Shown here: positions 11,591-32,939 of the stretch, one piece after another
How the letters are laid out: each line of letters opens with the position of its first letter
Position numbering within the stretch: position 1 is the stretch's first letter
From: Anaerolineae bacterium
GTDB lineage: Bacteria; Chloroflexota; Anaerolineae; B4-G1; SLSP01
Reading direction: 5' to 3'
NCBI GenBank assembly: GCA_016931315.1
Contig: JAFGFB010000028.1
Coordinates: forward strand, 1 to 33,362
Length of the DNA stretch: 33,362 bases
Notes under the pieces: generated by a model
Databases searched by the model: none
Seen by the model: only the letters and a program-made list of their open reading frames with translations
Told to the model about the DNA's origin: nothing
Translations under genes and position numbers: made by a program

Positions 11591-12430
11591 TCAAGGCACA
11601 AACCAGCCGTCCTGGCGCACCATGTAGAACCACAGCCCAACGCTATAAGGCTCACCCGCGTCATTGGTACATTGCGCAACAATCGCCGTTGGCAGGACGT
11701 CCTCAGGAATCAATGGATAACCTTCAGGAACCCAATTTACGTCACCAAACAGGAAAACATCTTCCCGGGTGGAATCTGCCACCCAAATCGGTCCACCAAT
11801 CTCCGGCGTCATGACTGCAAACATCGCGCGCCATTCCCCCTGCCCCCGCAACCCATGTCGCAATGCCACCGCATTAACATAATCGCGCAAAATCGTCGTA
11901 GCGAAGAATTTGGGTGCGCGATACATGATCTGATCCCACCCGCCGTTGTACGCCGCAAGTGCATTAAATACATCGCCGTTCCCCTGATGAATGACCGTCG
12001 CCAGAGTGCGGGTCCCCCAGAACAGATTGGTTGCAGGATTCAACAGTTCCGCACGGGACGGACGCCAGTAGAATTCAGGGACTTCACTTGGCATGATCTG
12101 CATCAAGCCCACCGAGCCTACCGGACCGATCGCCTGCGAATCCCCACGGGATTCCATCCACACGAGCGAGGCAAGAAAATCGGGGTCGAGACCGCGGCGT
12201 TCCGCTTCATCCAGAATCATGGGTCCCCACTGACGCACCTTTGGGCTCCAATAGGTCGAGAGTTCAGATACTGAAGCCGGGGCAAACGCGGTATCCGCGG
12301 TGAGCGTATCGGGTGATAGCGCCTCCACCGCCTCAGGTTCCGCAGGCTCATCCATGATCGGTGCAGCTGCCACATTGAACAACAACGAATAAAGGCCCAG
12401 CAACAACCATAAGCGGCGCAATTGCCTCAT
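11591..12430 (-). CDS. Lytic transglycosylase (SLT domain), secreted
   Basis: N-terminal signal peptide; LASLVWMESRGDSQAIGPVGSVGLMQIMPSE ... NLFWGTRTLATVI ... ALAAYNGGWDQ. Confidence 0.9.
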   Translation of the reverse strand: MRQLRRLWLLLGLYSLLFNVAAAPIMDEPAEPEAVEALSPDTLTADTAFAPASVSELSTYWSPKVRQWGPMILDEAERRGLDPDFLASLVWMESRGDSQAIGPVGSVGLMQIMPSEVPEFYWRPSRAELLNPATNLFWGTRTLATVIHQGNGDVFNALAAYNGGWDQIMYRAPKFFATTILRDYVNAVALRHGLRGQGEWRAMFAVMTPEIGGPIWVADSTREDVFLFGDVNWVPEGYPLIPEDVLPTAIVAQCTNDAGEPYSVGLWFYMVRQDGWFVP

Positions 12431-12521
12431 GCACTCCCTCGTTTCAAGAGTAAGGATTTACTCACCCGCATACATGATCTTATAGAGGAAAGTGCTATTT
12501 TGTCAAGCTCAAATCGAATTT

Positions 12522-12681
12522 GCGTGCGTTCCAAATCTAGGGCGACAATCTCAAGCGCTCCTAAGGGGCGTATAAAAAGTGATTTTTCGCGGCGGGGCAA
12601 AACCCCGCCGCGAAAAATCACCAAAAGAAAGGCATTTGCATGATAACGGGCTCGCTTTTTCCCCCAAGTCGAAACGCACCC
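12522..12681 (+). mobile_element. MITE-like element, copy B, with 8-bp target site duplication
   Basis: TIRs GCGTGCGTTCCAAA ... GAAACGCACCC; TCGAATTT at both 12514-12521 and 12682-12689; central hairpin GTGATTTTTCGCGGCGGGG-caaaa-CCCCGCCGCGAAAAATCAC (12579-12621). No coding capacity. Confidence 0.85.
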
Positions 12682-12804
12682 TCGAATTTTTAACGCGACG
12701 TTTACCCGGAATTTATGCGGTCATTTACCCTATTGACTGTTGGCTACCCACGATTATAGTATGCCCCAAGAGATGATTAGCCTACCCGACCAAGGATCAT
12801 ACCC

Positions 12805-30110: not shown

Positions 30111-30281
30111 GGGTGCGTTTCAAAATGGGGAAAAAGCAAGTTGACTATCATGCGAATGCCTTTCTCTGAATGATTTTTCGCAGCGGGGCTTTACCCGCTG
30201 CGAAAAATCACCTTTTTAGCGCCCCTATGGGGGCCCCCGTAGGGGCGCTTGAGATTGTGGCCCCAGATTTGGAACGCACCC
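30111..30281 (-). mobile_element. MITE-like element, copy C (reverse orientation relative to copy B)
   Basis: TIRs GGGTGCGTTTCAAA ... TTTGGAACGCACCC; its reverse complement aligns end to end with copy B; central hairpin at 30170-30211 and second palindrome at 30218-30249. Confidence 0.85.
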
Positions 30282-30358
30282 CCTTCAGTTACAAATTTGT
30301 GTCAGCTTAGTATCCATGATATAATGGGATTTGAAGCCAGAGCCATAAGAGGACGAAC

Positions 30359-32565: not shown

Positions 32566-32655
32566 ATGCAATTATCAAAAATACCTAAGCAAGAGTCTGT
32601 AAAAACTAGATCCCGAGCCAAAAACGCAATGAGATGCAGAGGAGTAGTCTTTTTT

Positions 32656-32696
32656 GTGATTTTTGTGGGTGGGTTGCACCCACCCACAAAAATCAC
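32656..32696. repeat. Palindromic repeat copy D (core hairpin)
   Basis: GTGATTTTTGTGGGTGGGT-tgc-ACCCACCCACAAAAATCAC; upstream ATGCAGAGGAGTAGT shared with copy A; downstream CTTTGGAACGCACCC (ends 32750) shared with copies B/C. Confidence 0.75.
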
Positions 32697-32939
32697 GGCT
32701 ACGGAGAAGGACGCAGAGGATAGATTTGCCCCCCACTTTGGAACGCACCCGAAGCACGTTCAGTATTGCCGAGATTTCCAGGAAAGAGTAAAATAGAGCC
32801 AGGTTTCGCATAGCTGAAGCGCGTTGACCGTTGGAAAGGAGTCGACCCCACGGAATGGACGATTACTTCCGCTATTCAGAAACCAGCACAACAGCTATCT
32901 GGAAAATCTACAGACATGACGGGATGACGACAAGTAAAC

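Follow-up and report, generated by a model that had tools for sequence, protein, structure and literature searches.

The window, i.e. the whole stretch of 33,362 nucleotides that was analysed, includes a lytic transglycosylase-like gene (11591–12430, minus strand), the name of which comes from the initial annotation and which has homologs in 21 of the 24 family genomes, and a divergent MFS gene. Between the two genes a 160-bp segment (12522–12681, plus strand when oriented from its L end to its R end) is bracketed by the perfect 8-bp direct repeat TCGAATTT, present at 12514–12521 and 12682–12689 (neither copy assigned a strand). The termini are GCGTGCGTTCCAAA at the left and, as reverse complement, GGGTGCGTTTCGAC at the right. 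The L-end terminal inverted repeat (TIR), GCGTGCGTTCCAAATCTAGGG (12522–12542, plus strand; family consensus GGGTGCGTTYCAAANNNGGGG), faces the promoter of the lytic transglycosylase-like gene, and the R-end TIR, GGGTGCGTTTCGAC, is located at 12668–12681 on the minus strand. The second base of the L end differs in this copy (GCG vs GGG; GGGTGCGTT is present in most other copies), which looks like a private mutation. Within the element, no open reading frame (ORF) of at least 100 aa was found.

The lytic transglycosylase-like gene lies downstream of a promoter with the -35 box TTGACA (12506–12501, minus strand), to which the distance of the L end (12522) is exactly 15 bp, and the -10 box TATAAG (12479–12484, minus strand), separated by a spacer of 16 bp. 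Both the -35 box and the whole TTGACA...TATAAG promoter are conserved in the related genomes G001, G002 and G003. On the other side of the element, about 51 bp separate the R end from the promoter that serves the divergent MFS gene (TTGACT-16-TATAGT; 12733–12760, plus strand), which is off the distance found at the L end. The centre of the element forms a perfect hairpin (12579–12621, no strand assigned) with a 19-bp stem (12579–12597/12603–12621) and a 5-nt loop. In the direction of the L end and the promoter, i.e. starting from the R end, TTTTT comes after the hairpin and gives an intrinsic-terminator-like signal (12574–12622, minus strand).

Further copies are present near the right end of the window. 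The second copy (30111–30281, minus strand, 171 bp) has its L end at 30281 and its target-site duplication (TSD) is no longer present; a promoter-like sequence, TTGTGT-17-TATAAT (30297–30325, plus strand), starts 15 bp past this L end. The third copy, truncated or rearranged, has its L end at 32730–32750 on the minus strand, and TTGCCG-17-TAAAAT (32766–32794, plus strand), also promoter-like, starts 15 bp past it. All three L ends of the window (12522, 30281 and 32750) fit the 15-bp offset, the boxes being weaker at 30281 and 32750. The third copy (32640–32750) has retained its L end while its R half has been swapped for a different hairpin (GTGATTTTTGTGGGTGGGTTGCACCCACCCACAAAAATCAC).

Copies in related genomes and the empty site

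BLASTN identified at least 43 copies of the 160-bp element in the window's own genome (G000; 4.35 Mb in 330 contigs, 88.8% complete), mostly with 76–90% identity, some of the 65 matches being self-matches of the internal hairpin. The TIR core occurred 192 times and the reversed control pattern 16 times, a 12-fold excess. Among the 149 relatives searched, the element was present in the sister species G002 and G003 of the same genus and was not found in G001 and G004, and one further genome contained only a hairpin-sized fragment. Within the genus the size of the element varies from about 110 to 175 bp, and the 43 copies that were aligned have a mean pairwise identity of 81%. Among the copies read, perfect flanking repeats of 8–9 bp were present in 22 distinct copies of the genus, nearly all of them with different sequences, the chance expectation being about 1.5e-5 per copy.

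In G002 and G003, the element is missing from the orthologous intergenic region, which includes a single target-like octamer (CCAGATTC / CCAAATTC). The identity of the neighbouring protein is 90 and 87% in these two genomes, respectively, and the spacer beyond the octamer is unrelated. In the simplest reading, the window copy would have been inserted after separation from the species of G002 and G003. No orthologous insertions shared by G000, G002 and G003 were found among the sampled loci.

The element is a MITE, with TIRs, varying TSDs, a short sequence without coding capacity, many copies and an empty site. The initial annotation had identified 12522–12681 as a MITE with an intact TSD on the basis of the TIRs, the perfect 8-bp repeat and the lack of an ORF, and this identification stands; other copies in the genome and in relatives, as well as an empty orthologous site, had been named there as checks, and both were found. 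The 19-bp hairpin and its covariation, the copies at 30111–30281 and 32750, the fixed promoter distance and the tandem arrays had not been mentioned.

Distance to the promoter

When promoters of the sigma70/sigmaA type were called with a score of at least 9/12, the -35 box was found to start 14–17 bp outside 28 of the 70 distinct L ends in the genus, whereas only one of the 49 R ends had a promoter at this distance (Fisher p-value 5e-7). The other four-base offset windows included on average 1.3 and at most 2 promoters, and shuffled sequences on average 0.6 and at most 3. With a threshold of 8, a promoter was present at the same position in 37 of the 70 L ends; with the threshold of 9/12, 60% of the L ends have none there. 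When read outward, the genus consensus of the L end has TTg.c at offset 15, followed some 24 bases later by a.aat, and that of the R end shows no promoter signal. The insertion of the MITE is promoter-targeted. The transposase complex would place the L end towards the promoter, 14–17 bp upstream of the -35 box, and at this distance the promoter would be left intact.

Similar targeting has been described by Guerillot et al. 2014 (PMC3942029) for TnGBS, ISLre2 and some elements of the ISKra4 group, whose insertion sites are upstream of sigmaA promoters, 13–17 bp separating the inverted repeat (IR) from the -35 box, and for which the orientation was proposed to be set by the asymmetry of the IRs. 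As in the MITE, the insertion of TnGBS and ISLre2 (p-MULT 3) is oriented, 15–17 bp upstream of the -35 box and with one IR always on the promoter side (PMC3942029); unlike the MITE, they are autonomous elements with a transposase of a different family, and their reported hosts are mainly Firmicutes. Several insertion sequences (ISs) of the ISKra4 group, 13 altogether, have been reported 13–17 bp from the IR upstream of sigmaA promoters, but the IRs of these ISs are near-perfect and promoters were predicted on both sides of them, while the MITE has unlike ends and is inserted one-sidedly (PMC3942029). Promoter targeting by Mutator-like transposases has been known from autonomous elements (TnGBS, ISLre2 and the 13 ISs of the ISKra4 group; PMC3942029). 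For an uncultured lineage, a high-copy MITE whose ends are asymmetric represents many natural insertions, so that the distance, the orientation and the part played by IR asymmetry can be quantified statistically. The L ends can also be used as promoter markers, based on sequence only, in genomes for which there is no transcriptome.

Tandem pairs of copies separated by the same octamer were found at three sites of the genome (L007, L010 and L027). In L010 and L027 the outermost L end has a promoter at a distance of 15 bp, and in L007 the flank of the outermost L end is occupied by another element. The better TSD is on the promoter-side copy in all three pairs. With the promoter as the reference point for the position, elements arriving later would reuse the promoter-proximal octamer and the copies of a tandem array would share one TSD; with a transposase reusing the octamer in this way, arrays are the expected product of successive insertions. 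We infer that the arrays arise by successive insertion at one octamer.

A second MITE family of about 180–250 bp, with the TIR GGGTATAGGACAAATTATTGGGA and a hairpin of its own (GTGATTTTCGTG...CACGAAAATCAC), was also observed in G000, G002 and G003 (L002, L007, L009, L015, L020, L022, L043, L060, L098 and L105). Its elements often directly adjoin those of the first family with a common 8-bp target and join similar arrays, and in L015 an element of this family is situated about 15 bp from TTGACA.

Insertion sequences with the same ends

A class-wide pattern search with GGGTGCGTTYCAAMNNNGGGG, in which the control gave no hits, showed that a further family, f16, has elements with the same ends. 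One genome of this family (G293) includes an IS of 1,466 bp in which both TIRs enclose a transposase split over two frames. The transposase matches the NCBIfam model ISKra4 at 2.6e-50 and 1.9e-12 and the ISLre2 model only at 4.7e-08; the ISKra4 scores are below the 205-bit cut-off of NCBI, the query protein being split over two frames, and the placement by profile match is at the level of the family, not of the ISKra4 or ISMich2 group. In G003, of the same genus as the window, ISKra4-like transposases adjoin the TIR in four contigs, the copies being fragmented or interrupted and none of them having a readable TSD. In one of these ISs, the agreement with the L and R ends of the MITE extends at both termini past the shared core (GGGGCGA / GGGGGAAAAG), and its transposase is interrupted by an IS21-like istA/istB pair, identified by visual inspection of the translation. 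The sequence of the L end of the MITE has its counterpart in the transposase-3' end of the G003 IS. A complete IS of 1,464 bp with both TIRs was found in the scan of the genome collection (L218, 1–1464), in a MAG filed as Candidatus Diapherotrites archaeon.

The TIRs are shared with ISKra4-family ISs at L173, L195 and L218, none of which has a readable TSD (the flanks mismatch in L173 and L195, and L218 begins at a contig end), and TIR-flanked ISKra4-type transposases occur in at least two genera. The initial annotation had suggested looking for an autonomous partner IS and had not recognised the family; the transposases flanked by the same TIRs identify it as ISKra4. The promoter distance recurs in these relatives: at an IS end in G003 (contig C12) the promoter is at offset 16, and also in f16 the promoter peak is at offsets 15–17. 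The one-sidedness was not significant in f16 (19 of 56 vs 5 of 26, p-value 0.2), one reason being that the ends are difficult to classify.

It is highly probable that the element is a non-autonomous MITE of an Anaerolineae (Chloroflexota) genus, that an ISKra4-family transposase mobilises it in trans and that it is inserted at a distance measured from the promoter. A transposase of this family (prokaryotic Mutator-like, p-MULT 4) would recognise the asymmetric TIRs (GGGTGCGTTYCAAANNNGGGG) and make the 8–9-bp duplications, and the shared ends suggest that it also moves the MITE. The ISKra4 family includes the groups ISKra4, ISMich2 and ISAzba1 and has hosts also among the Chloroflexi (PMC3942029). 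The MITE has its TIRs in common with the ISKra4-type transposase genes found here and differs from the family in lacking a transposase.

Duplications of 8 bp and ends starting with GGG are common to several IS families, and an ISKra4-type transposase was not detected in the window genome (88.8% complete, with several contigs ending near these repeats). Both points would agree with a MITE moved by some other IS family with 8-bp TSDs (IS256, IS1595, IS4/IS5-type, ISL3 or IS6), its likeness to ISKra4 being coincidental. The promoter distance is, however, a known trait of ISKra4, ISLre2 and TnGBS elements, and it is ISKra4-type transposases that the TIR flanks, in more than one genus. We consider a partner from another family very unlikely. 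The other transposase families searched, by Pfam models, were DDE_Tnp_1, IS1595 and Transposase_mut/IS256, and they were rejected as partners: DDE_Tnp_1 genes were absent or without a flanking TIR in G000, G002 and G003; IS1595 genes were absent or without a flanking TIR in the genus and absent from 14 TIR-bearing genomes; and Transposase_mut/IS256 genes were absent or without a flanking TIR in the genus. The matches to Transposase_mut in f16 were no more than weak fragments, the flanks of which were scanned over part of their length.

The transposase frames of the ISs at L173 (1715–3180), L195, L193 and L218 (1–1464) are always in a +1 (or -2) relation, shifting at a T5C5–6 run that precedes LDQ or LDE. 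The run is a candidate for programmed frameshifting; in the literature the frameshift of the ISMich2 group is -1, in contrast to the +1 (or -2) of the partner ISs. In L196, L192 and L218 part of the TIR doubles as coding sequence because the last transposase codons (LPPS or LPPN and stop) fall within it. L188, in contig C161 of G002, includes an uninterrupted frame of 516 aa that is a distant relative of the ISKra4-type query and has the ends GGGTGTGTTTCATTTGAGTTAGGC / GGGTGTGTTTCAAATGAGTTGAAA; it is a related but distinct IS.

Central hairpin

The single-strand folding of the window element has a z-score of -4.6, i.e. it is 4.6 sd better than that of shuffled sequences. Over the 21 stem pairs of the 43 aligned copies, 93.9% were Watson–Crick pairs, in comparison to 79.9% (maximum 82.5%) after column shuffling. 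Cells with a double change numbered 96, against 3–12 in slid registers, and up to four pair types were present per position. Variability is higher in the upper stem than elsewhere in the element (0.25 vs 0.18), so the upper stem changes fast but symmetrically. Loops were found in inverted forms (AAA/TTT and GAA/TTC), and when the two outermost pairs were left out, G–T and A–C mismatches were about equally common, so that no RNA strand is favoured. The covariation would fit either structural selection or arm-to-arm correction during replication.

In the direction from R to L, a T-run follows the hairpin in 39 of the 47 copies, and in the opposite direction in none of the 47. In the terminator scan, too, the hairpin of the window copy was classed as terminator-like (minus strand). 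With a terminator on this side, the promoter would be protected against transcription coming from upstream, and the fast-changing symmetric hairpin together with the promoter-facing T-run suggests a function in insulation. The MITEs may then be mobile promoter insulators, in which the hairpin and T-run would terminate transcription arriving from upstream and shield the gene while its promoter stays intact, and the arrays would grow at the same octamer with presumably the newest copy nearest the promoter. This proposal is tentative, and we regard it as somewhat less probable than its opposite.

The T-run, confined to the promoter-facing direction, and the compensatory changes that keep the stem paired would also agree with a domesticated regulatory repeat, either a promoter insulator or a regulatory RNA, the promoter bias of which would result from selection after random insertion. 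Selection could, however, hardly fix both the distance of 14–17 bp and the orientation, and the autonomous relatives have the same offset. Positions were not common between the species among the sampled loci, the balance of mismatches favours no RNA strand, and an Rfam search gave no family match for the element, the only match being a tRNA. Domestication is accordingly given little probability. Finally, the strong palindrome and the intergenic location would also suit an extragenic palindrome of the ordinary kind (REP/BIME-like) or an attenuator, the flanking repeats being fortuitous, but this class, which has neither TIR-defined ends nor TSDs, is contradicted by the defined TIR ends, the copy-specific 8–9-bp TSDs, the empty site and the ISs with the same ends, and it can practically be dismissed.

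As a non-autonomous MITE dependent on an IS, the element is of a known kind. Like bacterial MITEs in general, and like the 187-bp ISL3-linked MITE of Microcystis (PMC11448079), it is short, non-coding, bounded by TIRs, hairpin-forming, present in many copies and IS-dependent. In the open-access literature, we found no MITEs described as having a fixed distance to promoters, a terminator-like hairpin that faces the promoter or arrays that share a TSD, and the literature on the TIR sequence and on MITEs of Chloroflexi contained nothing relevant to this family; a MITE in high copy number that is positioned by distance to promoters, inserts one-sidedly and forms arrays with a shared TSD was not found described there.

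Elements with similar ends and different interiors were also observed. Those of f16 (L120–L182) have identical TIRs, TSDs of 8–9 bp and unrelated, densely palindromic multi-hairpin interiors (168–435 bp). In G124, where a partner transposase was not found, several 214-bp copies have identical ends, which suggests recent activity, and a further TIR variant, GGGTGCGTCCCAAATTATGGGC, with 8–9-bp TSDs is present in L156 (1597–1778) and L159 (3991–4209). In another genus, a 154-bp element with the same TIR (L088, in contig C56 of G013) has an interior formed by a CCGCAGAG-type repeat.
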